From NCBI RefSeq assembly GCF_006539165.1, contig NZ_BJMM01000012.1, positions 62,001-126,000 of the forward strand: a stretch of 64,000 nt of DNA, written 5' to 3'. Below, piece after piece: positions 1 through 14,214 of this stretch. Numbering within the stretch: position 1 is the first letter of the stretch; each line of letters starts with the position of its first letter. Made by a program: the position numbers and the translations under genes. The DNA comes from Streptomyces cacaoi (GTDB taxonomy: Bacteria; Actinomycetota; Actinomycetes; Streptomycetales; Streptomycetaceae). Below the pieces are notes generated by a model. That model had not been told where the DNA came from and did not search any database. It saw only the letters and a list, made by a program, of their open reading frames with translations.

Positions 1-873
1 ACGGAGGGCCGCGACCCGTACAAGGTGATCGTCCTGGAGCAGGTGCCGGCAGTCATGCCTCTGTGGGAGGTGTACGCCGAACTTCTCGGCGGAGGCGAAG
101 GGAGGCTCAACGGTGTCAAGTACGAGACGAGTTGCTGGAAGTTGAAAACGGAGCGGTACGGTGTACCACAGACTCGGACACGTGCTGTCCTGGTCGCCCG
201 ACGCCCCGGCCAGGGCGCGGTCGAACCTCCCGAGACGACGCACCTGCCCTTCGAACTGCGCCGGGGCAAGGGGGCCACCGATGCCGACGGGCTCCTGCCC
301 GATTCCGATATCCCTCGTGCCCGGCGACCTTGGGTCTCCATGGCGCAGGCGCTCGATGCAGCGAGCAAGTCGGACGGGTCCCCACTGGATGTGTCCCGGC
401 TCGTGCAAGACGGAAAGATGCAGTTCTTCGTGGTCTCGAACTACGGTTCCGGCGGCGACCCGAAGAAGCGAGGCCGTCGCCTCGCCTCCCAGCCTGCGTT
501 CACGGTCACCGGGAAGGTCTCACGGAACCGGGTGTACAGAAACCAAGCCGAGTACAAGGCCCAGCGATACGATCGCTTCACGATCCCCGAGTCCGGAGTG
601 CTCCAGACCTTTCCGCACAACTTCCCTTGGTCGGGGAACGACCAGGCGCAGCAGGTGGGCAATGCTGTACCTCCCCGGCTCGGTATGTATGTACTCAGCA
701 AAGCGCTGCGAGGGAACGCTCCGTCTGCGGCCGAGCTTGCCGCCGCGACCACGTGGCCTGCTGTGCCCCGGGCCACGACGGACCAGCTCCGTGCCTTCGG
801 GTGTGGGGATCAGAGCCGTTGTCCTCCGGATTCGCACAAGATCAGTCCCCCCCGGCGGAAGCCCTCCCCCTGA
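1..873 (+). CDS. drmMII: DNA cytosine-C5 methyltransferase, C-terminal part (DISARM drmMII type); 5' end outside window
   Basis: The reading frame is open from base 1, so the start and the AdoMet-binding/PCQ half lie to the left of the window. About 290 residues are visible. They contain LEQVP (motif VI, usually ENV, here EQV), YGVPQTRTRAVLV (motif VIII, QxRxR), PAFTVTGKVSRNRVY in the motif IX position, and QVGNAVPP (motif X, GN). This is the standard C-terminal order of C5-cytosine methyltransferases that flip out and methylate C. In class 2 DISARM, a C5 methyltransferase marks host DNA, and drmA and drmB lie 7-11 kb downstream here, so I infer that role. The last roughly 30 residues are basic and proline-rich, and their coding sequence overlaps the 3' end of the convergent DUF6339-like gene by 32 bp. 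Family assignment is secure; recognition sequence cannot be read. Confidence 0.9.
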   Translation, partial: TEGRDPYKVIVLEQVPAVMPLWEVYAELLGGGEGRLNGVKYETSCWKLKTERYGVPQTRTRAVLVARRPGQGAVEPPETTHLPFELRRGKGATDADGLLPDSDIPRARRPWVSMAQALDAASKSDGSPLDVSRLVQDGKMQFFVVSNYGSGGDPKKRGRRLASQPAFTVTGKVSRNRVYRNQAEYKAQRYDRFTIPESGVLQTFPHNFPWSGNDQAQQVGNAVPPRLGMYVLSKALRGNAPSAAELAAATTWPAVPRATTDQLRAFGCGDQSRCPPDSHKISPPRRKPSP

Positions 874-1729
874 CCGGCGCGTTGGTGAACAACTCCTCGA
901 AGAGCGAGGACAGGACGTCCACCGCATCAGCCGGGGCGCGCTCTTCTTCCGGTCCCTCCGGCAGATCGTTGCGGGGCGAGGGAACAGCCGACTCCGATGC
1001 CCTGATCCAATCGCGCACGACATCGCGGTCCCGCTCGACGTCCGGAGCCATGACGTCGTACATCAACGTCGCCGCTGCCGCGTTGACGGCCGAGGTGAGC
1101 GCGTTGACCTCTCGTCCGGTACGCACGGTCCCCTTTTCCAGGAGCCGCACGAGGGCCAGTGCAGTGGGACGGTGATCGACGACATCCAGTCGTAGTGCGG
1201 AGTTGAGCATGTCCTGATTGCCGCAGGCGACAACCACGGGCCGGTAGTCCGAGCCGTCGCGGAAGAGTTCGGCAGACCACCAGAGACGAGCGAAGGCCTG
1301 TGTGTAGTGGGGGCCGACGAATCTCCCCCTGGACACGCGTCCGTACCGACCTTGCCCCTTCGGCTCCGATCTGTGTCGCCAGACGACATAGTCCGGGGCG
1401 ACACCCAGGGCCAGGTAAGTCCACAGCCGTTTCTCGGACGCTTCTCGGCGGGTCAGCCGAAGTGTCTCGTGCAGCCGCGGGGCCAACCATGCGTCGGCCG
1501 CCGTCGGACGCGCGTCCCTGATTGCACCGAGCGCATCGTCGATCAGGTCTCGTACACGGTGTAGCTGCCACCGTGTCTCGTCTCCGGGCAGCGGCTCGGC
1601 GATCTTGTTCAATGCGATGGACGGGACGTCCTCACGTCCTTCGAGCAGCCCGTCCGAGATGAACTCCGCAGCCTGCGCATCGGTCAGCAGGGCAAGGTGC
1701 TCCGGCAGGTGTTCGGGACGGGAGGTCAC
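842..1729 (-). CDS. DUF6339-like protein of unknown function in the defence island
   Basis: 295 residues, soluble, with no signal peptide or membrane segment. It begins at a GTG that overlaps the stop of the gene before it (GTGA, 1726-1729), so it is translationally coupled. A central segment (about residues 120-170) with YLALGVAPDYVVWRH, GRFVGPHYTQAFARLWW and the later NQDM resembles my recollection of the DUF6339 family, which has no assigned activity. The C-terminal 40 residues are acidic and low in complexity. It is the last gene of a three-gene operon (sigma/ATPase fusion, unknown, this) and runs head-on into the methyltransferase gene, sharing 32 bp with it. Role in defence is inferred only from location; the DUF name is a memory-based match and could be wrong. 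Confidence 0.65.
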   Translation of the reverse strand: MTSRPEHLPEHLALLTDAQAAEFISDGLLEGREDVPSIALNKIAEPLPGDETRWQLHRVRDLIDDALGAIRDARPTAADAWLAPRLHETLRLTRREASEKRLWTYLALGVAPDYVVWRHRSEPKGQGRYGRVSRGRFVGPHYTQAFARLWWSAELFRDGSDYRPVVVACGNQDMLNSALRLDVVDHRPTALALVRLLEKGTVRTGREVNALTSAVNAAAATLMYDVMAPDVERDRDVVRDWIRASESAVPSPRNDLPEGPEEERAPADAVDVLSSLFEELFTNAPVRGRASAGGD

Positions 1730-2718
1730 GCGTGCATCTCCTGCTCGAGTAGTTCGATGTCGCGCACAGTGGTGGCCAACGCTTTCGGCACATCGGATCG
1801 GCGCGCGGCCGCCAAGTGGATGCGCGGCTGCAGATCCGCCCAGCTTCCCTCACCGATCCGCCGCAGATGCACCTCTCGTAGCGCGTCTTCCGCCGAACGC
1901 CCGGGAAAGATGTCGGGAAGCATCTCGCGCAGAACGGCACCACGCCAATCCGGTGGGAAGAGCGGTGTCCCGTCGTCCTCGACCTCCAAGTCACCGATCG
2001 CCGTGTGGAAAACAGCAGTCCAGACGTCAGCGCAGATCTGGGCCAACAGCATTTCTCCGACCACTCTCTCCACCTTCGAGCCCTGGCCCTCCATCAACGC
2101 GGCGAGTCCCTCGAAGTCGGAGTTCAGGCGAACGTTGGGCATGCGCCCCGATGCATCCACAACCCACGGTGCGTCACGGAATGCTCTCAGCCACTCGGCA
2201 CCCCGTGTGAAACTGACGGTCTGTACATCGAGTTGACGGGCCCGGAGCGGAGCGTCGGCCGTCATATCGATCATCCACTCCTGTTCGGTCGAAGCGATGA
2301 TCCTGCCGGCCACCCCCTCGACGCGGGCGACCACGTGCACGGTGAGCGACGCACGATCCAGGTGATCGTCCCGATCCAGCTCGATCTCACCGGCCCAGTC
2401 CCCCTCGCTCCCGGGCGCCGGCGACAGACGCGCGACACTCCGCGCGTTCGTCGCTCCCTCTGTCAGAACCGCGACGACGGATACATCGGACCAATGTCCC
2501 TTCCTCCGGATCTCCCGGGCGGGTACAGAGGCGGCAAGTCCGATCCGGGCGGTCCGCCAGTCGTCCCGCTCCGCCCTGCCGAGCGCCACGACCTGCTCGA
2601 CGGCCGAGCAGGCCCTGACGTCCAGCTGCTCGCGGTGTTCGCCGGGGCCGCGCAAACGGACGGCTGTGACCCTGGCCGTCACCGCCCCGCTCAATCGGGG
2701 GTACGGGTAAGCCCTCAT
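1726..2718 (-). CDS. Conserved-looking hypothetical protein, middle gene of the sigma/ATPase operon
   Basis: 330 residues starting at ATG 2718, which overlaps the stop of the upstream gene in an ATGA (2715-2718). A longer open frame to 2892 exists but lies wholly inside the upstream gene and is not needed. I do not recognise the family. The N-terminal half (to about residue 170) is rich in alternating hydrophobic/charged stretches suggestive of beta structure. The C-terminal half looks helical, with VGEMLLAQICADVWTAVFHT around residues 200-220 and an acidic WADLQPRIHLAAARR segment near the end. There is no signal peptide, membrane segment, Walker motif or zinc ligand set. Tight coupling on both sides suggests it works with the GHKL ATPase and the DUF6339-like protein, perhaps as a complex; that is inference. 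Confidence 0.75.
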   Translation of the reverse strand: MRAYPYPRLSGAVTARVTAVRLRGPGEHREQLDVRACSAVEQVVALGRAERDDWRTARIGLAASVPAREIRRKGHWSDVSVVAVLTEGATNARSVARLSPAPGSEGDWAGEIELDRDDHLDRASLTVHVVARVEGVAGRIIASTEQEWMIDMTADAPLRARQLDVQTVSFTRGAEWLRAFRDAPWVVDASGRMPNVRLNSDFEGLAALMEGQGSKVERVVGEMLLAQICADVWTAVFHTAIGDLEVEDDGTPLFPPDWRGAVLREMLPDIFPGRSAEDALREVHLRRIGEGSWADLQPRIHLAAARRSDVPKALATTVRDIELLEQEMHA

Positions 2719-5700
2719 GCCCCGACCCACCTGCCCTCCTGCAACTCGACGACGAGGCCGGTCAGTGCCGCACGCACAGGGTGACTCGAAACATCGGTGA
2801 CGCCCCGGAACACGGCCCGGCGGCTTCCCGGTGTGAAGCACAGAACCCCGTCGTCGAGTTCGCAGTGGCTGATGGCGACAAGTTCGGCCCAATCGACCAC
2901 CGGTCGGGGACCGGAGCGGACCTCGAGTTTGGCGACGGGCGTCATGCGCCAGGTCTCCGCCCGTGGCGGAAGCCTGACCTCAGCAGTGATCCGCCACGCT
3001 CCTGTTGGGTCGACGACAGCCTCCAGGTCGTCCATCCTCGGGCGCTCCGCCACTCCCACGGCTCTGGGGGAGGGTTTGCCCGACACCTTGAGGCGTCTGC
3101 TCACCTTGCCGGCACCCGTGAGCTTCTTCTCCTGGCGAATCGCGACGAGGGCGTGGACGGCCCGATTGGTCTCGGTCGTGAGCGCGGCGATCCGCCGATG
3201 TGCCGAGGGCGAATAGCGCATTCTCAGTTCCTCGGTCTGTCCCCACTTGTTGTGTTCCGGCGGTTCGGAAGTACGGAGGAATTCCTCCGCCTCTGCGGCG
3301 AAGGGAGCGTCCGGCCCGGCAGCCAGGCCGGCGAGCAGGACCGCTTGGAACGGGTTGGTGCCGATGGGCAGGCCCGGCACATGACTCACCTTGACTGTCA
3401 TACGGTTACCGCGCATCGCAGTCACCCTGTTCGGCTTTCCGTCGGTGTCCGTGGCCCGCGTGACGAGGAGTACTGCCCGGTGCTCACCGGCGGTTCCGGA
3501 GGTTCCGTCCTTCTCCGGTACTTTCAGCGGCACAGTGGTGCATGCCACCTGTTCCTCCTCGGTGATACGGTCCACCGTGGTGCCGCACAGGAACGCCCGG
3601 AGCGCCCTCGTCCGTGCGGGCTGGTGGACCTCCGGCTCCACCTTCTCCTCGGCGATGAATTCCGCTCCGTTCCGCAAAGACCGAACCGAAGCCTCCAACA
3701 ACGGCTGGTGGTCGCCTCCCGACGTCATGGCGGCCCAGAAGTTCCGTCCGAGCGCTTGCACCAACCTTCTGTGCATACGTTCCAGGCTGTCCTCGTCGTC
3801 CCCCGCATCCCCTTCCGTGCCCTGTCCGACCTCGGTGAGGCTGGCCACGTCGTGTGCCCCGACGATCAGGAACGACGTGCCGGGTTCGTCGGTTCCACGA
3901 GTGAGGTGGAGAAGCTCTGCCGTCGCTTCGTCGGCCCACCACGAACGCGCGACCTCACCGTTACCGGCTTCGTCATCGGGCCGTCCCAGCCAAGCGGGGC
4001 CGGCATACCTCTTGCCGGCCACCTCTCGCCAGGGCAGGTCCAGCCGTCCGATGAAACGACGCTCCGTCCGGCCTTCATGGGGCTCACAGAGCGTCGAATT
4101 GATGAGCACGAGGCCCAACCGGCTGGTACTCCAGAGCGTGGCCTTGCCCAGGCCGTACGACCCTCCGGCCATCAGGTCCGACTTTCGGCTGTCGAGCTGG
4201 CGCCGGACGACTGCGGCGAAACGACCGTCCTCGTAGTCGTCACCGGTGAGCCCGTTGGCGTTGTAGTCATCCACCCGGAGAAGAACGAGCCGGTCCTTGT
4301 CCATCATCTCGCGCAGACCTGCTCGGATGGCACGGCCCACCTTCTGGTCCTGCGCAGCAGCCGCTTCGAAATGCGGGAGAAGATCGTCCCAGTGGATCGC
4401 TTCGCAGAAGCGTGTCAGGAAGTCCCCTGTCAGCTCGTGCAGCGTGTAGGAAACCCTGACCGGTCGGTCGTTACATCTGACGCGCTCGTCGAGACTGTTC
4501 TGTGTCGCTTCGCGGGCGAGGACTTCCACGTCCGCCTCGAAGGCGAAAGCAGCCGCGTTTCCGAATTCACGCCCTCCGTCATCGTGGCCGGGGCGGTGGT
4601 ACCAGACGACCTGACTCATATCGTTCGCCGGCTGCTCCGGAGTGGCACGGGAACCGTCCGCCCCCGACTCGGCTTCAAGACACTCCTGTGCCCGAGCGAG
4701 AAGTTCAGGCGGGGGTTCGGAGCTGCCGTTCAGCCAGGCCTCGACGGTGGCCTGTGGCACTGCGAGCCGACGCCCCGCCTCGACCGCGTCCCACCCTCTG
4801 ATTCGCATACGTTCGGCCATCCATCGACCGAACCCGATGTTCACCGACGTCACCGCTCCCTCTTCTCCGTCGGCACTGCTCTCCACTTCCTGCTCGCAAC
4901 CACCGTTGCGCGGCGGGGCCTTCCACCCGTACGAATCCCTGACCGAGCCATCGGAGCCGCCGGAGGACGCGGAACCCGCGACGCTCATTTCACAAACAGC
5001 CCGCCGCCGGCGGCGTTCCGAGGCCGGGTCGTCGGGCTCCAGGCCCAAGTGCACCCTCAGATCCTTGAAGGCCCACTTCTCGAGCTGTCGGATGCGCTCC
5101 CGCGTGACGCCGAACTCCTTTCCGATCTCCTCAAGAGTCCATGGTGTCCCGTCCACGAAGCCGTAGCGGAGCAGGAGAACCTTCCGGGACCGTTCCGACA
5201 GGGGGCAGGAGTCGAACAGATTGAGGATCTCCTGGCGAGCGAACACCGGCCACAACACCTGTTCAGGCCCCGGTACGGGCGTGAAGGCATCAACCACCAG
5301 TTCCCCGAGAGTCGTGTCGGCACTCACAGGCTGTTCCAACGAGAGCACCACTCGGCGACTCAGTTGCAGACACTTCGCGACTTTCTCGGAACTCATCTCG
5401 CAAGCGAGAGCGAGATCGTCCACATTCGGCTTCAGCCCTTGGTCGAGACAAGCTCTCTCGGCTCGACGCACCTTCTCCACATCCACCCTCATGTGAACCG
5501 GCAGCCGGATGGAGGTTCCCTCGTTGGCGATGGCCCGCGTGATCCGTTGCCGGATCCAGCAAGTCGCGTAGGTCGAGAACTTGCAGCCCAGGGTGACGTC
5601 GAACTTCTCGACGGCGCGCATCACACCGATCGCCCCATGTTGTACAAGATCCTCGTACATGGGGCCTCCCGGCCGATGTCCGAGGTCCCGGAGAATCTTG

Positions 5701-6353
5701 TGAACGAGTCGCTGATTATGGGCGATCATCGCGGACAGAGCCCTGTGGGCCTCGCCCTCCCGTGGCAACCCAACCGTGTAACCGTCGGGCAGTGGGCCAG
5801 ATATTTCCTCCCTCCCCCGGTACAGCAGGCAGAGGCCGACTTCCTCCTCGGCCGTGAGAATCCTTCGTTGCGGGTTCGCCCGCCGTCGATCCACCTCGAG
5901 CACCCGACGCGCAGCACTGCGAGCAGCCTCGAAGTCGCCGACGTGATCCGTTCCCCGGAATGCTTCGATGTCGGGCTCTTCCGTGTCCTCGCCGAGTTCC
6001 GAGTCCGAGAACGGGTCCCAGTGAGCGGTGTCCCCGTCGGCCACCTGCTGCTCCGAGGAGCCCACATCGTCCGCGAGGCCCCGACCGTCCCTCTGAGGCT
6101 CCGCGGCAATCTCCGCAGCCGCGACGGCCTCCGACAGGGCCTGGGCTTCCGACGCGTCGAGACGCGCAGCGCGCAGTACCTGCTGCACCGCCACCCGGGG
6201 TTGCACTCTCTCGGCCGTGAAGCGCCGAACGAGTCGAACGAGGATCTCCGGGAACGTATGGTGCTCACTCTGGCCGGAGGCACCTCTTCGTGTCCTGGTC
6301 ATCCTGCCCCCAACGCCCCGTACGGCCACCCCTGTTACGTACCAGTCCATCAC
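2715..6353 (-). CDS. Sigma-70 factor / HTH / GHKL-type ATPase fusion protein
   Basis: One uninterrupted 1212-codon frame. The start GTG 6353 (or ATG 6350) follows GAGG by 7 nt. Residues about 165-435 form a complete non-ECF sigma70 factor. Region 2 includes YEDLVQHGAIGVMRAVEKFD and FSTYATCWIRQRITRAI (about 233-275). Region 3 lies near 290-340. Region 4 ends in the HTH WTLEEIGKEFGVTRERIRQL (405-424). After a low-complexity linker comes an HTH-like stretch (about 508-560, GWDAVEAGRRLAVPQATVEAW). From about 600 follows a GHKL ATPase: N-box EATQNSLDE (615-623), G1 DDYNANGLTGDD (695-706), G2 GGSYGLGKA (730-738). The C-terminal 450 residues are unrecognised. GHKL proteins bind ATP and change shape; sigma factors direct RNA polymerase. 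Joining them suggests ATP- or damage-gated transcription, which is inference. An internal GTG (4853, residue 501) has a purine-rich upstream stretch, so a separate ATPase product is possible. Confidence 0.85.
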   Translation of the reverse strand: MMDWYVTGVAVRGVGGRMTRTRRGASGQSEHHTFPEILVRLVRRFTAERVQPRVAVQQVLRAARLDASEAQALSEAVAAAEIAAEPQRDGRGLADDVGSSEQQVADGDTAHWDPFSDSELGEDTEEPDIEAFRGTDHVGDFEAARSAARRVLEVDRRRANPQRRILTAEEEVGLCLLYRGREEISGPLPDGYTVGLPREGEAHRALSAMIAHNQRLVHKILRDLGHRPGGPMYEDLVQHGAIGVMRAVEKFDVTLGCKFSTYATCWIRQRITRAIANEGTSIRLPVHMRVDVEKVRRAERACLDQGLKPNVDDLALACEMSSEKVAKCLQLSRRVVLSLEQPVSADTTLGELVVDAFTPVPGPEQVLWPVFARQEILNLFDSCPLSERSRKVLLLRYGFVDGTPWTLEEIGKEFGVTRERIRQLEKWAFKDLRVHLGLEPDDPASERRRRRAVCEMSVAGSASSGGSDGSVRDSYGWKAPPRNGGCEQEVESSADGEEGAVTSVNIGFGRWMAERMRIRGWDAVEAGRRLAVPQATVEAWLNGSSEPPPELLARAQECLEAESGADGSRATPEQPANDMSQVVWYHRPGHDDGGREFGNAAAFAFEADVEVLAREATQNSLDERVRCNDRPVRVSYTLHELTGDFLTRFCEAIHWDDLLPHFEAAAAQDQKVGRAIRAGLREMMDKDRLVLLRVDDYNANGLTGDDYEDGRFAAVVRRQLDSRKSDLMAGGSYGLGKATLWSTSRLGLVLINSTLCEPHEGRTERRFIGRLDLPWREVAGKRYAGPAWLGRPDDEAGNGEVARSWWADEATAELLHLTRGTDEPGTSFLIVGAHDVASLTEVGQGTEGDAGDDEDSLERMHRRLVQALGRNFWAAMTSGGDHQPLLEASVRSLRNGAEFIAEEKVEPEVHQPARTRALRAFLCGTTVDRITEEEQVACTTVPLKVPEKDGTSGTAGEHRAVLLVTRATDTDGKPNRVTAMRGNRMTVKVSHVPGLPIGTNPFQAVLLAGLAAGPDAPFAAEAEEFLRTSEPPEHNKWGQTEELRMRYSPSAHRRIAALTTETNRAVHALVAIRQEKKLTGAGKVSRRLKVSGKPSPRAVGVAERPRMDDLEAVVDPTGAWRITAEVRLPPRAETWRMTPVAKLEVRSGPRPVVDWAELVAISHCELDDGVLCFTPGSRRAVFRGVTDVSSHPVRAALTGLVVELQEGRWVGA

Positions 6354-6456
6354 TCATCGGCCTCGTCTGCCAGCTTCTGTCCGGGCCGGAGGCACTCCCC
6401 CAGGCAACCCTCTGTATTTTGATGGGGCGTTGGCGTGACAAGGGGGGAGAGAGTCG
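6354..6456. promoter_or_regulatory. Divergent promoter region of the two defence operons
   Basis: This 103-bp gap is the only non-coding DNA inside the island and must hold promoters for both arms. Its single AT-rich block, TCTGTATTTTGATGG (about 6411-6425), could supply a -10 element on either strand. I cannot identify a convincing -35 partner. The + strand gene has a strong ribosome site (AAGGGGGGAGAG just before ATG 6457). Since one arm encodes a sigma factor, this is the natural candidate for autoregulation; there is no direct sequence proof. Confidence 0.4.
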
Positions 6457-8070
6457 ATGCGCATCATCCCTAGCGAGATCTCGAGCAACACCAGGAGCAA
6501 CGCGGAACGCAGCGTCTTCGCCGCGCTGAAGGCGGTACCTGACGACCAGAGCGTCGCGTTGCACACCGTGCACCTTCCCAGGCACCGCAAGAAGCGCGTC
6601 GGTGAGATCGACTTCGTCGTCATCACGCCCGATCTCCTGCTCTTCATTGAGGTCAAGGGGGGTCGAGTGCGCGAAAGCGATGGAAAGTGGTACTACGGCC
6701 CACCGGGCCGCGAGGACGGACCGAAGGAGAGTCCGTTCAAGCAGGCGAGTGGGGGCATGCACGAGTTCGAGCGAGAGCTGGGAGCCCTGATCGGCGATCT
6801 GAGGGACCACGGCGTCGCCGGGGGTTACCTCGTGATCACTACGGACGTCGACCTCGACCGTACGACGGAGTTCGAACCCGAGCAGTACCTCGGGGCCACG
6901 GCATACGACGGCGGCCGTGGCCTGGCCGCCGGCATCGAGCGGGCGACCCGCTTCTGGTCGGCCCGGAACAGGTGGGCACGCACGCCGGTGCCCGCATCTC
7001 TCCGCAAACGGATGCTCGCGGCCATTCGTCCGGACTTCGACCTGGTGCCGAACCTGCAGTCACGCCTGACCCATCTCGACGTCGTCTTCGAGCGGCTCAC
7101 CGAGGAACAGCTCGACAGGCTCGACGAGTTGGAGTCCAACCCACGGCTCATCTGGACCGGCGGTGCAGGAACGGGGAAGACGTTCCTTGCCGCCGAGGCC
7201 GCCCGCCGCAAGTCGGCCAGGGGCAGCGTCCTGTTCACGTGCGCCGGCAGCACTCTCGCGCAGCATCTGGCGGCAGTCCTCACCGAGGTCTCGATCACGG
7301 TGCTGCCGTTCGACCGGCTCGACGAGGTGCGAGGGCAAAGCTTCGACCACCTGATCGTGGACGAGGCTCAGGACCTGATGTCCTTCGAGGCTCTCGACGT
7401 CCTGGAGGAACTGGTCGCAGGAGGTCTGTCCGGCGGCCAGTGGATCTTCATGCTCGACCAGAACAATCAAGTGCTGACACCGGACGTCTACGACCCGGAG
7501 GCATGGCAGTACTTGTGCGACCTGGGGTTCCGGTACGGCCCCATGAAGCGCAACTGCCGCAACACCGTGCAGATCGTGAACCAGGTGCGCTCCTACACCG
7601 GGGCCGATCTGGGGATCGCCACTGCTGGTGAGGGGGAGCCCGTACGCTTCGTCGATGTACACGACACACAGGACGAGGCCCGGGCTCTCGACGTGTACGT
7701 GGACGAGTTGGTACGGAACGGAGTATCACCTCGGGACGTCACCTTGCTGTCCGTCGGGGGGGAGTGGGAGACCAGCTCCGCCTGCCAGTCGCAACGTTCC
7801 TCGAAGATCGAGCGGTTCGCCGACGTGGTCGGGACCGAGCGCAGGAAGCACCGGCTCACCTGGTCGTCCATCGGGGATTTCAAGGGACACGAAAACCATG
7901 TCGTCTGCCTTCTGGACCTCGAACCGGCCCATCTTGAGGGACGGCTCGACGCGATCTACGTCGCGTGGACAAGGGCACGCGCCCAACTCTGGGTCGCGTG
8001 CCGCCCCGGCACACGACAGGCACTGAAGGACCTGGGCGTGGCCATGCTGAAGCAGCAGGGGAGGCTCTGA
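6457..8070 (+). CDS. NERD-domain nuclease / UvrD-like SF1 helicase fusion
   Basis: 537 residues from ATG 6457, with ribosome site GGGGGGAGAG 4-5 nt upstream. Residues 8-165 are a NERD (nuclease-related) domain: GEIDFVVITPDLLLFIEVKGG (49-69) carries the restriction-fold E/D...ExK pattern (E50, D52, E65, K67). Residues 225-537 form a compact superfamily-1 ATPase: Walker A GGAGTGKT (235-242), Walker B VDEAQD (301-306), DQNNQ (334-338), NCRNT (366-370), GDFKGHENHVV (473-483) and VAWTRARAQLWV (502-513). Such proteins are predicted to translocate on and cut DNA. It is the first gene of the drmAB operon, and its stop shares one base with the drmA ATG (TGATG). A nuclease-helicase here may stand in for the drmC phospholipase-D nuclease, which I do not find; that substitution is inference. 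Confidence 0.85.
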   Translation: MRIIPSEISSNTRSNAERSVFAALKAVPDDQSVALHTVHLPRHRKKRVGEIDFVVITPDLLLFIEVKGGRVRESDGKWYYGPPGREDGPKESPFKQASGGMHEFERELGALIGDLRDHGVAGGYLVITTDVDLDRTTEFEPEQYLGATAYDGGRGLAAGIERATRFWSARNRWARTPVPASLRKRMLAAIRPDFDLVPNLQSRLTHLDVVFERLTEEQLDRLDELESNPRLIWTGGAGTGKTFLAAEAARRKSARGSVLFTCAGSTLAQHLAAVLTEVSITVLPFDRLDEVRGQSFDHLIVDEAQDLMSFEALDVLEELVAGGLSGGQWIFMLDQNNQVLTPDVYDPEAWQYLCDLGFRYGPMKRNCRNTVQIVNQVRSYTGADLGIATAGEGEPVRFVDVHDTQDEARALDVYVDELVRNGVSPRDVTLLSVGGEWETSSACQSQRSSKIERFADVVGTERRKHRLTWSSIGDFKGHENHVVCLLDLEPAHLEGRLDAIYVAWTRARAQLWVACRPGTRQALKDLGVAMLKQQGRL

Positions 8071-11000
8071 TGAACGATGCAGAAACACGACTTCCGGAGC
8101 ACCGGGACGAATTCGTCTCATACCTGCGTCGGCAGCTGGTCGGTCCCGCGTACGCCGAGGACGAAACCCTGGTGGATCCACCGGATCGCCGGTACCTGAT
8201 GGGAACGCTGTACCCACGCGGCGTCTCCTTGTCCGAGCATTCGAGGGACGACGGGGAGCAGGATTTCGCCGAGAACCAGGCAGGGAGCGGCGAGGAGGAC
8301 GGTTTCGCGGACGACCCCGTGGCTGAAGCGAACGCGTGGCTGCCCTCGTCCCTCGGCTTCTCCTTCTTCACCGATGCGGATCGCGTACGGGTCACGTGCA
8401 GTGCCTCCCGTTACCTCACGTTCCGGGAGGGCGGGCGCCGCAGTTGGCGTCGGCAGCCTCGCCTGGCCAGCACCGAGACCGTCACCGTCGGGCAGGCCTC
8501 ACCGATCGGCGTGCTGGACGGACACGGACTTCTGCATGTGCGGTGGCGGGCCTTCGGCGAGGGACACCTCGTGACGTGCGTGCTCGCCAACGGGCACGAC
8601 GAGGAGGAGAGCGCTCACAAGGACCGGGACCTCATGCTCTTCCAGGCGGAAGTGGAGGCCACGACTGTCGGCGGGAGGATCATGGAGTACCCCAGCACCC
8701 GCCTCACCAGTCGGGACGAGGAAGAGGAGGAGCTGCGTGTCCAGTACCGCCGCGTCATCACGAGAGCAGTGGGTCACGGGTGCGCGGTGGAGTGGGACGA
8801 CGACGGGGAAGTCGACACTGTGCGCGCCGAGGTCATGCCCCAACAGGTAGTGCACCACATCAAACCCGACGGCCCCGTGAGCTTGCCCGTCCTTCGTCTC
8901 GCACACCTGTCGCAACCGGTACCCGCTGCCGAGCTCCGGGACGAATTGCAGCACTTCGTCGAAGGTTATCGCGCGTGGTACGACCACCAGCAGACGGTGG
9001 CAGACGGTTTCGGGCCCTGGGCGGCCGAGCCGGCCGGACGCATCCTCCGTCGCATCGAAACGGCTCTGAACCGCATGGTGCGGGGGGTGGAGGCGATCAC
9101 CGCTCCGACCCGGGCGGGTGAGGACGCGCGCGAGGCCTTCCGGCTGGCGAACCGGGCGATGGCGCTCCAGATGCTGCACAGCCGCCCGGAGCTCGCAGGC
9201 AACCGGCGCCGCCGCACCGATCCGGTGCTCGAGCTGACGGAGCCGGACGGCAGTTACGCATGGCACCCGTTCCAGCTCGCATTCTTCCTGCTCGTGGTCG
9301 AAGGACTCATGTACCCCGAGCACGAGGACCGCGAGACGGTCGATCTGATCTGGTTCCCCACCGGCGGTGGCAAAACCGAGGCATACTTGCTCACCGCATG
9401 CTTCGAGATTCTCTGGCGGCGCCTGCGCTTCGGCGCCCAGGGCGGCGGAACTGCTGTACTGAGTCGCTACACCTTGAGCCTGTTGACGACTCAGCAGTTC
9501 CAACGGACCGCTACAGCCGTGTGCGCCCTGGAGTACATCAGGAAGGGGCACGACGGACCGCTCGAGAAGAGCTTGGGCGAGGAACCCGTCTCCATCGGGC
9601 TATGGGTGGGAAGAGAGACGACGCCGAACAGGGTCGACGCGGCGCAGGAGGAACTCGAGGCTCTGAAACAGATGGAGGAGCCCGACGACAGGTTCCTTCT
9701 GGAGCGATGTCCTTGGTGCGGTACCGAGATCGTTCCGCAGCGGTACCGATCCGACCGCGACTTCGGCATCCGAGCTGACGGAGCCACCACCTACTTCTTC
9801 TGTCCGCGGGATTCGTGCGTCTTCCACGAACGGCTCCCGGTGTCCGTCGTGGACGAGCAGATGTACGAAGAACCGCCGACCTTCCTGCTCGGCACGGTGG
9901 ACAAGTTCGCGCGCCTGGCCTGGGAGCCGAGAGCGGGGCGCCTCTTCGGCGGGAACGGTAAGCGCGCTCCCTCTCTCGTCATCCAGGACGAATTGCACCT
10001 GCTGGCAGGACCATTGGGAACGACAGTGGGACTGTACGAGTCCGCCGTCCTCGAGTTGTGCAGGCGAGGCGGTACGGCAGCGAAAGTGATCGCGTCGACG
10101 GCGACGATTCGGCGCTCGCAGGAGCAGGTCCAGAACCTCTACGGGCGTACCGCACAGCTCTTCCCCCCGCCCGGCCTCGATGCCGGTCACTCGTACTTCG
10201 CGTCCCCGGACGAGAAGAAGCCGGGGCGCATGTACGTAGGTGTCATGGCCCAGGGGCACACTGCTTCCACCTCGACGGTCCACGTCGGAGCCGCCGCTCT
10301 CCAGGCCTCGGAGGAGGTCTGTGACGACGACACACTCCGGGACGCCTACTGGACCGTGGTCGCTTATCACAACAGCTTGCGGGAACTGGGCCGGACGGTG
10401 ACCATCGCCAGGGACGACATCCCGGCCCGTCTCGAACACCTCACGCAGAACGAAACGCACCGCCGTGAGCTGGACGACGATTCAGTGGTGGAACTGACCA
10501 GCAACATCTCGAGGGCCGCTCAGCCCCGGCTTCTCGAGCGTCTGGGAAAGAACTTCAAGAGCCGCGACAGCGTGTCCTTCCTCGCCACGACGAACATGCT
10601 GTCCGTCGGTGTCGACGTGCCTCGTCTCGGCCTGATGCTCATGAACGGCCAGCCCAAGACCACCTCGGAGTACATCCAGGCCACCAGCCGCGTCGGCCGA
10701 CGTCACGTCCCAGGGCTGGTTGTCACGCTCTTCCGCTCCACCAAACCCCGGGACAGGTCCCATTACGAGTCGTTCGGCGTGTACCACCGTTCGCTCTACC
10801 GGCACGTCGAGCCGACCAGCGTCACTCCTTGGTCCCTGCCGTCGCGCGACCGGGCGCTACACGCAGTTCTCACCATTCTCGTGCGCCACGGCATCGGCCT
10901 GGCGGCGGAGAACAGAGCCGGGGAACTCCTTGAGCACCAGGCAGAAGTGGAGCGTGTTCGCGACATCCTCGTCGACCACGTGTGTCGCGCCGATCCCAGC

Positions 11001-11231
11001 GAGGCGAGCGCCGCTGCCGACCAGCTCGACAAGCTCGTGGAGAGCTGGAAACAGGAGGCAGAGAACGCCCGCGTCGACGGTGGACGACTCTACTACCAGC
11101 CTCAAGGACGTCAGCACGCGTCGCTGCTCCGGGACTTCGGGAAGCAGGACGGCATGTGGCCGACCCTCCAGTCGATGCGCAACGTGGACAGGGAGTGCCT
11201 CGTCGTCGTGAGAGGAGCCGGCAGTCAGTGA
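8070..11231 (+). CDS. drmA: DISARM helicase DrmA
   Basis: 1053 residues. ATG 8070 is preceded by AGGGGAGG and shares one base with the previous stop; a longer frame back to 7965 lies inside the upstream gene. It is an SF2-type helicase: Walker A TGGGKTEA (431-438), DEAH-box variant DELH (640-643), STATI (676-680), and a C-terminal helicase lobe with TNMLSVGVDVPRLGLM (841-856) and QATSRVGR (870-877). A probable zinc site lies between the lobes (C547, C550, C578, C583). The N-terminal 390 residues are the family-specific domain. In DISARM, DrmA and DrmB form the complex that senses and acts on incoming unmodified DNA; DrmA is the motor. Length and motif order fit that family well, and the next gene encodes DrmB, as expected. 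Confidence 0.9.
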   Translation: MNDAETRLPEHRDEFVSYLRRQLVGPAYAEDETLVDPPDRRYLMGTLYPRGVSLSEHSRDDGEQDFAENQAGSGEEDGFADDPVAEANAWLPSSLGFSFFTDADRVRVTCSASRYLTFREGGRRSWRRQPRLASTETVTVGQASPIGVLDGHGLLHVRWRAFGEGHLVTCVLANGHDEEESAHKDRDLMLFQAEVEATTVGGRIMEYPSTRLTSRDEEEEELRVQYRRVITRAVGHGCAVEWDDDGEVDTVRAEVMPQQVVHHIKPDGPVSLPVLRLAHLSQPVPAAELRDELQHFVEGYRAWYDHQQTVADGFGPWAAEPAGRILRRIETALNRMVRGVEAITAPTRAGEDAREAFRLANRAMALQMLHSRPELAGNRRRRTDPVLELTEPDGSYAWHPFQLAFFLLVVEGLMYPEHEDRETVDLIWFPTGGGKTEAYLLTACFEILWRRLRFGAQGGGTAVLSRYTLSLLTTQQFQRTATAVCALEYIRKGHDGPLEKSLGEEPVSIGLWVGRETTPNRVDAAQEELEALKQMEEPDDRFLLERCPWCGTEIVPQRYRSDRDFGIRADGATTYFFCPRDSCVFHERLPVSVVDEQMYEEPPTFLLGTVDKFARLAWEPRAGRLFGGNGKRAPSLVIQDELHLLAGPLGTTVGLYESAVLELCRRGGTAAKVIASTATIRRSQEQVQNLYGRTAQLFPPPGLDAGHSYFASPDEKKPGRMYVGVMAQGHTASTSTVHVGAAALQASEEVCDDDTLRDAYWTVVAYHNSLRELGRTVTIARDDIPARLEHLTQNETHRRELDDDSVVELTSNISRAAQPRLLERLGKNFKSRDSVSFLATTNMLSVGVDVPRLGLMLMNGQPKTTSEYIQATSRVGRRHVPGLVVTLFRSTKPRDRSHYESFGVYHRSLYRHVEPTSVTPWSLPSRDRALHAVLTILVRHGIGLAAENRAGELLEHQAEVERVRDILVDHVCRADPSEASAAADQLDKLVESWKQEAENARVDGGRLYYQPQGRQHASLLRDFGKQDGMWPTLQSMRNVDRECLVVVRGAGSQ

Positions 11232-13120
11232 AAGATGTTCGACGCAAGGTGCGCAGAGCCCAGACCATCGTTCCTTTCGGAGTCGGAGGCATCATCGATC
11301 TCCGCGGCGAATCCTTCGTAGCCGCCGACATCCAGAGCTGGTCCCGCAGAAGCGAGGAGGTGAAGTCCCCACGACTGGCCCGTAAACTCGGGGTGCAGAG
11401 CTTCCGTTCAGCACCCGTGATCCCCGCCGGCAAGGCGGCTTTCGCCAGCCGGAACGGGCCTGTCTATGTACGGTTTCCGAAGTGGCTCTTCTGTCCTCGT
11501 TGTCGGCGGATGGCCCTGTGGCGCCCGGAACTCGAGCAGGCAGACAAACAACCCGCCTGCAGACGCTGTGCCGGTGGCTCCCAGCTGGCCCCCATGCGTT
11601 TCATCCAGGTGTGCCGAGCAGGCCACATGGCGGACATCGACTGGCACCGTTGGGCCCATTCCCGCAGCGAGAACCACGACCAACGCCAGTGCCAGGCCCG
11701 GAGGCTCCGGTTCATCGCGATGCCCGACTCCTCCGGGCTCGAAGCCCTGCGGGTCGCCTGTCTCTCCTGTCATGCGGGGCGGAGCCTGGCGGGAATCAGC
11801 CAGAAGAACGTTCTCAAACGAGTCGGTCTGGCGTGTCCCGGGACCCATCCGTGGCAGTCGGAAGGCGACGAACCGGAAATCTGTGAGGAGACTCCACAGG
11901 CGGTACAGCGCGGCGCCTCCAATGTGTACTTCCCGGTCACGCACTCGGCGATCGACATCCCTTCCCCCGCAGACCTTCCCGCAGAGGAGGAAGCGGCCCA
12001 GAGAGTATTCGACCACTCGCTGTGGCCGCAGTTCAGAAGCTCGGAGGGAAGCCCGATCGCAGAGGCTCTGAGACAGGTCATCTCAGACCATTGCTCAGTT
12101 CCCGAGAGTTTCGTGGAGGGACTTCGCCGTCGCGACACGGACGACGCCGTCGCGATGCCGACGGTGGTCGACGCGGACGACGACCTGAGCATCGACGAGT
12201 GGGCGGCGTTGTCCGCACCGGAAAGCGTCACCGAGTCCCCCACCTTTTCGGTCCGCCGCTCCACTCTCGGTGTCCGGTCCGACGATGCCGGGTCCTTGCA
12301 GAAACTGGCTGCGAAGATCGGTTCCATTGTCGTCGCGGACCGGGTGCGCGAAGTACGTGCGCTCGCCGGATTTTCACGCTACGAGCCTGCTTCGAGCGAC
12401 GATGAAGACGACGAGGGCGGGAGAGTCGTCAAGGTCGGCGGTGCCTCTCGGGCAAAATGGCTCCCCGCTGTCGAGACCTACGGTGAGGGCATCTTCCTCA
12501 CCGTCGACGAGGACCATCTGAGTTCCTGGGAGAATCTCCCGGCTGTGCGCGAACGGACGCGGCGTATCGAGGAGAACCTCGAAGCCTCTTTCCAGAAGGA
12601 TCGGCTCAGGGCCCGGTCCGGGCCCGTGCTCCTGCCACGGTTCGTCATGCTCCACACCCTGGCTCACCACTTCATCCGCCAGCTCTCCTACGACAGCGGA
12701 TACAACGCGGCTTCTCTCCGGGAACGTGTCTATGCGCGAAGTCATGCTCCGGGAAGCGATCATCCACCGCAGGCGGGCGTGTTCGTCTACACAGCAGCCG
12801 GTGATGCGGAAGGAACGTTGGGCGGGCTGGTTCGCCAGGGACGCCCGCCGCATCTCGTCGAGACACTGGTACGGCTGCTCGAGTCGGCCCAGTGGTGTTC
12901 ACAGGACCCACTGTGCGCTGACTCGACGGGTCGGTCCCTGGCCAACCTCAACCGAGCAGCCTGCCATGCGTGCACGCTTCTTCCCGAGACATGCTGCGAA
13001 GCGGGCAACTCTCTACTCGACAGAACGCTGTTGATCGGTGACGGCGAAGTCCCCGGATTCTTCCGGGACGTGGTGCGGGCGGCACTGGAGGAATCCGCAG
13101 AGGCCGTCGAGCTGCCATGA
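11228..13120 (+). CDS. drmB: DISARM protein DrmB (DUF1998 domain)
   Basis: 630 residues. The GTG start at 11228 overlaps drmA's stop as GTGA and has GAGGAG about 10 nt upstream; the frame extends further 5' but only within drmA. The N-terminal part has paired-cysteine zinc-like sites: CPRC (89-92), CRRC (111-114), CRAGH (129-133), CLSC (178-181). The C-terminal third is a DUF1998 domain, with LHTLAHHFIRQLSYDSGYN from about residue 475, GVFVYTAAGDAEGTLGGL, and a cysteine-rich end (ACHACTLLPETCCEAGN). DUF1998 is the defining domain of DrmB, the partner of DrmA. The middle (about 350-460) holds an acidic linker. Its stop overlaps the next gene's start (ATGA). Confidence 0.9.
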   Translation: MKDVRRKVRRAQTIVPFGVGGIIDLRGESFVAADIQSWSRRSEEVKSPRLARKLGVQSFRSAPVIPAGKAAFASRNGPVYVRFPKWLFCPRCRRMALWRPELEQADKQPACRRCAGGSQLAPMRFIQVCRAGHMADIDWHRWAHSRSENHDQRQCQARRLRFIAMPDSSGLEALRVACLSCHAGRSLAGISQKNVLKRVGLACPGTHPWQSEGDEPEICEETPQAVQRGASNVYFPVTHSAIDIPSPADLPAEEEAAQRVFDHSLWPQFRSSEGSPIAEALRQVISDHCSVPESFVEGLRRRDTDDAVAMPTVVDADDDLSIDEWAALSAPESVTESPTFSVRRSTLGVRSDDAGSLQKLAAKIGSIVVADRVREVRALAGFSRYEPASSDDEDDEGGRVVKVGGASRAKWLPAVETYGEGIFLTVDEDHLSSWENLPAVRERTRRIEENLEASFQKDRLRARSGPVLLPRFVMLHTLAHHFIRQLSYDSGYNAASLRERVYARSHAPGSDHPPQAGVFVYTAAGDAEGTLGGLVRQGRPPHLVETLVRLLESAQWCSQDPLCADSTGRSLANLNRAACHACTLLPETCCEAGNSLLDRTLLIGDGEVPGFFRDVVRAALEESAEAVELP

Positions 13121-14214
13121 CGTTCCCCTCCCTCGTCGACCTCGGAACCGAACAGCAGGCTGTCGTCGATCTGCCTTTCCACGGGTGCCATCTGGTCACC
13201 GGAACACCTGGGTCGGGCAAGTCCGTGATGGCTGTCTACCGGGCGTGGGCACTTGCGACTGCCGGGCGCGGGGTCACTCTCCTCACTCGTTCCAATCTGC
13301 TCCATCAATATCTCGCCCAGTTGGCACCGGACCTTACGGAAGCGCTCGACGTGACCACCTACCATCGGTGGATCCGGGCATTCTGGAGTGCACGTTTCCG
13401 GAGCGATCCTCCCCAGATCGACGAGGACGACTGGACATACGACTGGCTCGAGATGCAGCAGAACTGTCTCGCCCGGAAGGTCGGGACGACCGGGCACCTT
13501 GTGATCGATGAAGGACAGAACCTGCCCATAGGCTTCTACCAGTTGTGCCGTCTGCTCGGGCTGGACATCACTGTCTTCGCGGACGAGAACCAGCGGATCG
13601 ACAGTGAGCAGAGCGCCTTGTCGGAGATACGCAGAGCACTCGGTATCCGGTCCCCGATCGTACTCCGCGAGAACCACCGGAACAGCCGTGCCATCGCTGC
13701 CCTGGCGTCCGCGTTCCACGTCAGGGGGGACTCAGAGGTCGCTGTGCCGACCCGTGCGGGCCCTATACCGACGCTGCTGAGAGCCCCTTCCCGGGAGCAC
13801 CTTCTCTCCGCTGTACGCCAGTGCTTCCACGCGCATCCGGAGCGGAGCATCGGAGTCATCTGCAGGTCGACGCACACCTTGCGTTCCGTCCAGAACGGCC
13901 TCACAAAGCTCGGTCTGGCCGGGTCGACCCAGGCCTACGCACACAACGACCGGTACCGGAACGCCATCGATTTCTCCTCCCGCCCGATTCGGCTAGTCAG
14001 CACAGCGAGCATGAAAGGGTTGGAGTTCGACAGCGTTTTCGTCCCGGATCTCGACGCGTACACCGAGGACCCGACCGGTGTGGAAGCGTGTCTGCGGTTC
14101 TTCGTCCTGTGCACCCGCGCTCGCGAAGACCTGCACTTCGCTCACCTCGGTGCAAAGGAACCACCTATCCTGTCCGGAATTCCGGAGTCCTTGTTGATCC
14201 GGCGCACCTGCTGA
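13117..14214 (+). CDS. Small UvrD-like SF1 ATPase at the end of the drmAB operon
   Basis: 365 residues, ATG overlapping the drmB stop. It carries superfamily-1 helicase motifs in a very compact form: Walker A TGTPGSGKS (28-36), TYHRW (81-85), Walker B-like LVIDEGQN (128-135), ADENQRI (155-161), LRENHRNS (183-190), MKGLEFDSVFVPDLD (299-313) and FFVLCTRAREDLHF (328-341). The usual UvrD 1B/2B subdomains are missing, so it may be a DNA-dependent ATPase rather than a processive helicase. Unlike the NERD protein at the head of the operon it has no nuclease domain. It occupies the operon position after drmB where drmC often sits in described DISARM loci, but shows no HKD phospholipase-D motif. Function is inferred from location. 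Confidence 0.8.
   Translation: MTFPSLVDLGTEQQAVVDLPFHGCHLVTGTPGSGKSVMAVYRAWALATAGRGVTLLTRSNLLHQYLAQLAPDLTEALDVTTYHRWIRAFWSARFRSDPPQIDEDDWTYDWLEMQQNCLARKVGTTGHLVIDEGQNLPIGFYQLCRLLGLDITVFADENQRIDSEQSALSEIRRALGIRSPIVLRENHRNSRAIAALASAFHVRGDSEVAVPTRAGPIPTLLRAPSREHLLSAVRQCFHAHPERSIGVICRSTHTLRSVQNGLTKLGLAGSTQAYAHNDRYRNAIDFSSRPIRLVSTASMKGLEFDSVFVPDLDAYTEDPTGVEACLRFFVLCTRAREDLHFAHLGAKEPPILSGIPESLLIRRTC

Follow-up and report, generated by a model that had tools for sequence, protein, structure and literature searches.

A sigma70 factor and a GHKL ATPase joined in one frame beside a DISARM-like operon of Streptomyces cacaoi

The fusion gene and its domains

The window analysed here is a stretch of 64,000 nucleotides of Streptomyces cacaoi (contig NZ_BJMM01000012.1, positions 62,001 to 126,000). 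Near its left end, a gene on the minus strand joins a housekeeping-type sigma70 factor to a GHKL ATPase in a single open frame. The first-pass annotation had claimed such a fusion of a sigma factor outside the extracytoplasmic function type in a defence island, and the fusion is now seen in 27 distinct loci (called fused loci below), in a DISARM-like island. It had also reported a frame of 1212 codons at 2715-6353. The frame is real, as judged by homology and by its retention in relatives. However, its strand had been left unstated: it reads from 6353 to 2715 on the minus strand and its first codon is GTG 6353. This codon is probably not the start, because it lies inside an intergenic GAGTGATGGA word and the conserved protein starts near ATG 6302, which is favoured. 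The length of the frame is no evidence by itself since an antisense frame of 1213 codons (2781-6422, plus strand) also overlaps the gene; the proof of the gene is the homology and the joint frame retained in relatives. The features of the gene are as follows.

2718..6302, minus: full-length fusion gene, probable start ATG 6302, 1195 aa (homology, joint frame in relatives)
6105..6254, minus: N-terminal three-helix domain at the expected place of region 1.1 (helices of the predicted model, residues 17-66)
5055..5861, minus: sigma70 regions 1.2 (by eye), 2, 3 and 4 (Pfam, Foldseek, alignment)
4854..5054, minus: linker, residues 434-500 (no in-frame stops in fused loci)
4851..4862, minus: purine-rich leader GAGGGAG and GTG codon 501, probable internal start of a helix-turn-helix (HTH)-GHKL protein (22/22 HTH-bearing fused loci)
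4674..4841, minus: XRE-type HTH, degenerate; deleted in 5/27 fused loci
3117..4586, minus: GHKL ATPase and transducer domain, MORC/MutL-like fold (invariant boxes, fold match)
2733..3050, minus: C-terminal beta domain (strands of the predicted model, 1089-1189)

The order along the chain is thus a helical N-domain, sigma70 regions 1.2-4, an XRE-type HTH and a GHKL ATPase with a MORC/MutL-like fold. The sigma regions 2-4, HTH-like segment and intact N, G1 and G2 boxes of the first-pass annotation are all confirmed by Pfam, PADLOC, invariance in the alignment and the predicted fold, with the HTH_3 match below the cut-off. On the chain, Pfam gave Sigma70_r2 at 209-277 (E 1.5e-15), r3 at 293-355 (1e-6) and r4 at 385-433 (7e-16), together with a weak HTH_3 match at 519-554 (E 6e-4). 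No Pfam family was found at E<=1 for residues 580-1212, and the PADLOC model PDC-M33A matches at 608-752 (E 4e-19). When the chain was aligned with 40 relatives, E598, Q601, N602 and D605 of the N box, D679, N681, G684 and L685 of G1, and G714, S715 and G717-K720 of G2 were invariant (1195-aa numbering). The C-terminal part therefore has both the three boxes and the fold of a GHKL ATPase.

The structure of the 1195-aa chain was modelled from 40 sequences (mean predicted local distance difference test score, pLDDT, 74.8; predicted template modelling score 0.49), and the model was read for its domains and not for their mutual arrangement. It contains a three-helix N-domain, the sigma helices, the linker, the HTH, a GHKL-transducer unit and the C-terminal beta domain; linker residues 447-489 have pLDDT<50. 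The top Foldseek match is SigA (E 4e-13), and the sigma of a Streptomyces holoenzyme also matches (3e-12). For residues 573-1062, the top fold match in VIA-align is MORC3 (Z 15.2, root mean square deviation 4.2 over 299 residues), followed by MORC4 (14.9) and SMCHD1 (14.1), yet Hsp90 (14.1), TopoVI-B (13.7) and MutL (13.3) are close behind. The S5 motif of MORC proteins, GhXhhpXXRhl in PMC2292703, was judged by eye, and its Gly is not retained in the relatives.

Region 1.1 was not seen in the fused sigma by Pfam, in the predicted model or in the alignment, and with regions 2, 3 and 4 present the sigma belongs to the group 2 type. The stretch TYATWWIRQ is almost invariant among the 27 fused sigmas, the first Trp being Cys in the window and Ser in locus L048. 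This Trp, of the melting pair, corresponds to W433 of E. coli, and we take the contact roles of the sigma stretches to be those of E. coli RpoD. In region 4, RER[I/V]RQ was found in 27/27 fused sigmas; it served as an alignment anchor and none was discarded for missing it. The contact motifs are thus largely kept, and from these motifs the fused sigma is predicted to bind core RNA polymerase and to read promoters.

The joint frame and the internal start in relatives

Relatives were collected in two sets. A search with the GHKL part (E<=0.001) matched 104 of 392 genomes of the genus, 84 of them near full length including the window, and 62 of 293 genomes of the order, 47 near full length and 30 of those new. 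The first set comprises all near-full-length genus and order loci, leaving out 20 genus and 15 order genomes with weak partial matches only; its 120 entries are 113 distinct loci besides the window, seven having been entered twice, all without sigma. Flanks in this set were 1,500 bases for 6 distinct loci and up to 4.9 kb for 51 (one 1.4 kb). For the second set, 84 relatives were found by a scan of genome contigs and 79 loci were examined. After duplicates were merged, the 136 loci with a whole GHKL gave 27 fused and 85 unfused distinct sequences. The fused loci are mostly from Streptomyces, and also from Streptantibioticus, Yinghuangia and Amycolatopsis.

A sigma part was present in 12 of the 113 distinct first-set loci, each time in one open frame with GHKL, and in 21 of the 79 second-set loci, in none of them out of frame. 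The frame is uninterrupted in 27/27 distinct fused loci. By the first-pass annotation, two separate genes elsewhere and a sequencing error here would have refuted the fusion; these loci speak against that, and a lost stop codon or assembly error as the cause of the fusion is ruled out by the same frame in 27 loci. As a separate neighbour of GHKL, this sigma was found at none of the 113 first-set loci (tblastn, E 0.01, at which a strongly diverged sigma could escape) and at none of the 79 second-set loci. N-domain residues 20-165 matched 9 of 384 genus genomes, namely 8 fused loci including the window and one weak match (E 4.6e-4), so that no convincing free copy of the sigma N-domain was seen in a search that overlooked the diverged fused locus of genome G247. 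None of 128 viral stretches was a relative. The GHKL part occurred in 5 of 72,556 plasmid records, and no sigma was seen in the plasmid stretches inspected around it. In the sigma-less locus L055 (8705-12717), the GHKL frame does not stop at its usual end but extends to 12382, and M33C, a downstream gene described below, is matched in two pieces; this is either a decayed copy or an assembly error.

Among 13 linkers, 50 to 67 codons in length, no in-frame stop was found, whereas stops interrupt the two alternative frames in 4/13 and 8/13. From 9 sequences, the nonsynonymous-to-synonymous ratio pN/pS was 0.45 for sigma, 0.25 for GHKL, 0.54 for the HTH and 0.87 for the linker, in line with purifying selection on the domains. 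The last value implies that the frame has been retained rather than the residues, and such weak constraint would fit a tether. In five fused loci (L160, L170, L173, L207 and L095) the HTH was lost by an in-frame deletion with sigma and GHKL kept. Apart from these five, every actinobacterial GHKL in the loci examined carries an N-terminal XRE HTH; four unfused loci had been flagged by a regular expression as lacking it, wrongly, since the HTH is visible in their sequences.

Two nested proteins are probably made from the gene: sigma-HTH-GHKL and a free HTH-GHKL. Counting back from the FGxWL motif of the HTH, an ATG or GTG is found at a distance of exactly 7 codons in 20 of the 22 fused loci that have the HTH; of the other two, L176 has its start codon at 8 codons and L180 has TTG at 7, behind GAAGGAGGATCG. 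The background of ATG/GTG is 0.59 of 22 per position and at most 3, to be read with the loci being related and TTG outside the preset count. The residue at this position switches between Val, Met and Leu with the codon, as expected of a start codon, and the bases before it are mostly purine-rich, reading GAAGAGGGAGCG-GTG in the window. In unfused loci, where HTH-GHKL is a gene of its own, its start region corresponds to this position. The five HTH-less fused loci have a GTG in the linker as well. One of them, L170 from Yinghuangia, was taken at one point to lack a start codon at the joint and so to make the fusion only; this was wrong, its GTG standing after AGGGGAGTT. Production of the short form is what the retained start codon leads us to infer. 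Synthesis of sigma would thus have to run on into GHKL, and synthesis of GHKL alone would be possible.

The divergent operon and the role of the chain

The island around the fusion gene has the following further features.

1..873, plus: C5-cytosine methyltransferase, 437 aa, with 441 bases left of the window; faces M33B and M33C
842..1729, minus: M33C, DUF6339 protein, matching PDC-M33C (E 8e-8)
1726..2718, minus: M33B (our label), beta-sandwich and helices, ATGA overlap with the fusion gene
6303..6456: divergent intergenic region of 154 bases, shared with the NERD-UvrD/DrmA/DrmB operon and free of TGTCAAA/TTTGACA words
6346..6355, minus: GAGTGATGGA motif, present with <=2 mismatches in 21/26 fused intergenic regions
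6457..8070, plus: NERD nuclease domain and UvrD-type helicase
8070..11231, plus: DrmA-type helicase
11213..13120, plus: DrmB family protein, start approximate
13117..14214, plus: UvrD-type ATPase, UvrD2 (our label)

The genes of M33C and M33B overlap on the same strand, downstream of the fusion gene; no clear relative of the M33B fold was found (best Z 7.7). Bases 1-14214 have a G+C content of 65%, compared with 74% in the rest of the window. A tRNA-Pro(CGG) lies 1.3 kb beyond the methyltransferase gene (L239 6191-6265; about -1809 to -1735 in window coordinates) and is a possible insertion point of the island. The top NCBIfam match of UvrD2 is HelD, an RNA polymerase recycling motor (E 6.6e-13, 47 of 419 bits); although curious beside a sigma factor, this is probably generic helicase similarity.

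The sigma part was seen only with the NERD-UvrD/DrmA/DrmB/UvrD2 operon. When this operon type is defined by more than 45% identity to the NERD-UvrD of the window, it accompanies 12/12 first-set loci with sigma and 0/101 without (some with short flanks), and 20/21 against 0/58 in the second set, where the contig of the 21st ends too soon. The fusion gene is divergent to the operon in 26 of the 27 fused loci, the contig of the 27th being too short. The first-pass annotation had missed this tie, as well as the internal start, the change of promoter words described next, and the HTH-GHKL and GHKL-only relatives.

In unfused loci, TGTCAAA/TTTGACA words look like XRE operators. They occur within 300 bases before 39 of the 58 unfused genes of the second set (0.8 in mononucleotide shuffles), as an inverted repeat before 16, several with a third copy. 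About 115 bases ahead of the HTH motif in six unfused loci (L189, L192, L194, L196, L201 and L234), the site is TGTCAAA-N5-TTTGAC(A) with an additional TGTCAA as third copy, and it holds a TTGACA-like word. In the 26 fused intergenic stretches of 243 bases, TGTCAAA/TTTGACA was not found at all (0.2 in shuffles). Often common to the fused loci are a word near AAnATACCGA and GAGTGATGGA, which is present once, or twice at a spacing of about 60 bases. With <=1 mismatch, 36 GAGTGATGGA words were counted in 392,721 bases of second-set fused loci, and 22 of these fall within the short intergenic stretches; sharing it is no proof of function, because kin loci share words by descent.

The usual relative of the fusion is an HTH-GHKL without sigma, and archaeal and cyanobacterial relatives have neither. 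Among the sigma-less first-set entries, 82 of 108 have a sacsin/DEAD helicase operon, with examples that also carry UvrD and a diverged DrmA. The first gene of this usual partner operon is of the type in L045 (3328-8163, minus), whose product of 1611 aa combines a weak N-terminal sacsin match (a second GHKL by eye) with a DEAD helicase. Three Nocardia loci (L177, L178 and L229), which the GHKL tree places close to the fused type, read in one direction through a DEAD-type helicase, NERD-UvrD, DrmA, DrmB, HTH-GHKL, M33B and M33C, followed by one or more facing methyltransferases; their NERD-UvrD is 31% identical to that of the window.

That the fused GHKL parts form one clade was rejected: one quick tree requires 4 changes, at least 3 of them forced by well-supported branches, and a second tree requires 5. 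The approximately unbiased test gave p 1e-62 against one clade, on a quick tree of 34 fused and 66 other rows with near-copies included. On the other hand, the NERD-UvrD proteins of the fused loci form one group against two Nocardia rows, and the fused sigmas one group against 9 other sigma rows (one change), with a support of just 44 and with the deep rows L203 and L048/L180 not firmly placed relative to the other sigmas. This difference seems to be explained more simply if halves were exchanged at the joint than if fusion had occurred repeatedly.

Our favoured reading, held with middling confidence, is that the chain regulates the DISARM-like operon to which it belongs, in a manner gated by ATP, the sigma having replaced control by the HTH. 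It would consist of a housekeeping-type sigma tethered by a flexible linker and the HTH to a MORC/MutL-like GHKL ATPase, with the internal start very probably yielding free HTH-GHKL as well. The GHKL part would dimerise on ATP and serve as sensor or clamp of a DISARM-like system made up of GHKL-M33B-DUF6339-C5 methyltransferase and of NERD-UvrD, DrmA, DrmB and UvrD2. In most actinobacterial relatives, HTH-GHKL would act as an XRE-type repressor on TGTCAAA/TTTGACA operators, and in the fused group the same ATPase would govern how RNA polymerase is recruited to the divergent promoter region shared with the operon. Infection might then alter the ATP or partner state of the ATPase, by which transcription of the operon would be raised or released. 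Regulation is favoured because one operon type is linked, the site is divergent, the operator words are absent and the HTH is lost in 5/27 loci, as expected if the sigma took over its task. That the two parts are joined in all examined relatives with this sigma suggests a switch between sensing and transcription that is built into a single chain.

More tentatively, ATP-driven closing of a MORC-like dimer, composed of the full-length chain and free HTH-GHKL, may decide whether the tethered sigma forms holoenzyme, so that sensing, clamp and transcription would be one machine; loci would swap a sigma-operon half and a clamp half as modules, keeping the joint in frame.

Several observations weigh against regulation by the fused chain. 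In the melting pair, the first Trp is replaced by Cys in the window sigma and by Ser in that of L048, and no sigma-70 consensus promoter was found in 6200-6600 though the sigma keeps its consensus-reading residues. Operator words are also lacking before 19 of the 58 unfused genes, including the three Nocardia loci nearest the main fused clade. GAGTGATGGA is absent from 5 of the 26 fused regions even with two mismatches, and one or more copies (<=1 mismatch) stand before 5 of the 58 unfused genes. The linker is near-neutral with weak codon periodicity, and its other two frames are often open by composition; proteolytic separation of sigma from HTH-GHKL is possible. Lastly, the counts are not independent trials because the fused loci are kin.

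Of the alternatives, delivery is the most probable, though we consider it unlikely. The sigma would be a targeting module that docks the MORC-like clamp with its M33B, M33C and NERD partners on RNA polymerase or phage promoters, where the clamp would close and block or mark the DNA for the helicase-nuclease set. The fold matches MORC and MutL, which are DNA clamps; the sigma keeps the consensus -10 and -35 contact stretches (with their presumed roles) and would read ordinary promoters. Further, HTH and sigma are both lacking from a Synechococcus GHKL-M33B-DUF6339-methyltransferase set, which implies that the module serves some purpose by itself. However, the absence of operator-like words where the sigma is present and the divergent position to one operon type both point to regulation, which is better supported than delivery. 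The first-pass annotation had proposed both mechanisms, and both are still inference.

More doubtful is an incidental joint, in which the sigma part is cleaved off, HTH-GHKL is made from the internal start and the lack of a stop has no consequence. The start codon retained in 22/22 loci and in the linkers of the five HTH-less ones, and the hardly constrained linker, would agree with this. Nevertheless, no in-frame stop occurs in any of the 27 loci while the other frames were stopped in 4/13 and 8/13, the HTH deletions preserved the frame, and neither the scans of the loci nor the N-domain search found the sigma as a separate gene. Slightly less probable still is a guard, in which phage factors that inhibit or remodel the sigma or RNA polymerase of the host would be baited by the tethered sigma, whose capture would alter the GHKL state and fire the system: the sigma diverges faster than GHKL (pN/pS 0.45 against 0.25) yet keeps its contact stretches, and it has its own N-terminal domain, but fast change has many causes and the absence of operator words is left unexplained.

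The nested gene would never make sigma without the clamp. How large defence operons remain silent before infection is a question with few answers so far. It becomes testable here by comparison, among close relatives, of a likely repressor-type sensor (HTH-GHKL) with a likely sigma-type sensor (sigma-HTH-GHKL) that has the same ATPase.

Comparison with known systems

We know of no earlier case of a group-2-type sigma covalently joined to a GHKL ATPase. Literature searches gave no description of a sigma-GHKL chain, most subscription papers being beyond their reach, and the architecture appears to be undescribed. When compared to group 1 and 2 sigmas (HrdB, RpoD), the fused sigma is alike in regions 1.2-4 and in the contact stretches, but it has no visible region 1.1 and is always tethered in the examined loci.

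DISARM resembles the island in having a DrmA-type helicase and DrmB beside a C5 methyltransferase, to which the island adds NERD-UvrD, UvrD2 and the sigma-GHKL chain. DrmA is matched in PADLOC (E 1.5e-207) and reaches 894.3 bits in NCBIfam against a cut-off of 950; DrmB, with 450.8 bits for NF038324, exceeds its cut-off of 240. The methyltransferase matches the DrmMII model (E 8.8e-18) and MTase_II far better (1.3e-78). DrmC, with a phospholipase-D domain, is a core gene of DISARM, and no match to DrmC or to a phospholipase-D family was seen among the 8 island proteins. The island is therefore a DISARM-like relative and not a full DISARM.

Like the island, the mza system has a sigma70 factor (MzaA) and a MutL-type GHKL ATPase in one system, but there they are encoded by separate genes. 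PADLOC and NCBIfam had suggested that the fused sigma is MzaA. This was ruled out, with 202 bits against a cut-off of 800; the match is generic because the HrdB-type sigma of the host scores higher (356 bits), and the model matches ordinary sigmas in 246/246 genomes of the phylum, none above the cut-off. The models of MzaB to MzaE gave no match among the 8 island proteins (E<=0.01). In PMC9523054, mzaA is called 'a sigma factor', and among what the literature searches gave the mza system is the nearest. Restriction systems with prokaryotic MORC ATPases (Iyer et al. 2008, PMC2292703) are alike in combining GHKL with an S5-type transducer fold beside a methyltransferase, and the word 'sigma' is absent from the main text of that paper. 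In the available parts of three further papers, the YprA helicase preprint (PMC12458937) has no GHKL, MORC or DUF6339, PMC7824862 has GHKL only as topoisomerase and rIIA domains, and PMC13118837 has no GHKL and uses 'disarm' as an ordinary verb.

To our knowledge, PDC-M33 exists as candidate models only, and a literature search for 'PDC-M33' returned no paper. The GHKL and DUF6339 proteins match PDC-M33A (E 4e-19) and PDC-M33C (8e-8), and so do the Halobaculum and Synechococcus proteins. The gene between them, M33B, is present and matches no PADLOC model. The gene order GHKL-M33B-DUF6339 with a C5 methyltransferase near is common to the plasmid relatives; the archaeal and cyanobacterial members inspected lack sigma and XRE HTH, whereas the window has both. 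On haloarchaeal plasmids, the set of GHKL, M33B, DUF6339 and C5 methyltransferase without HTH or sigma has phospholipase-D and DrmB- or helicase-type genes near in three of four cases; in Halobacterium sp. DL1, no DISARM genes were found in the inspected stretch. A Halobaculum gene overlapping GHKL is annotated as ribbon-helix-helix, for which Pfam gave no confirmation. On a plasmid of Synechococcus elongatus IITB6, the set again comprises GHKL, M33B, DUF6339 and C5 methyltransferase without HTH or sigma (L264 256-5820). About 2.8 kb away lies a second, oppositely read PDC-M33A/M33C set (L274 3014-7626), whose first gene encodes an MzaD-like PD-(D/E)XK protein (E 8.9e-12), a possible link between PDC-M33 and mza.

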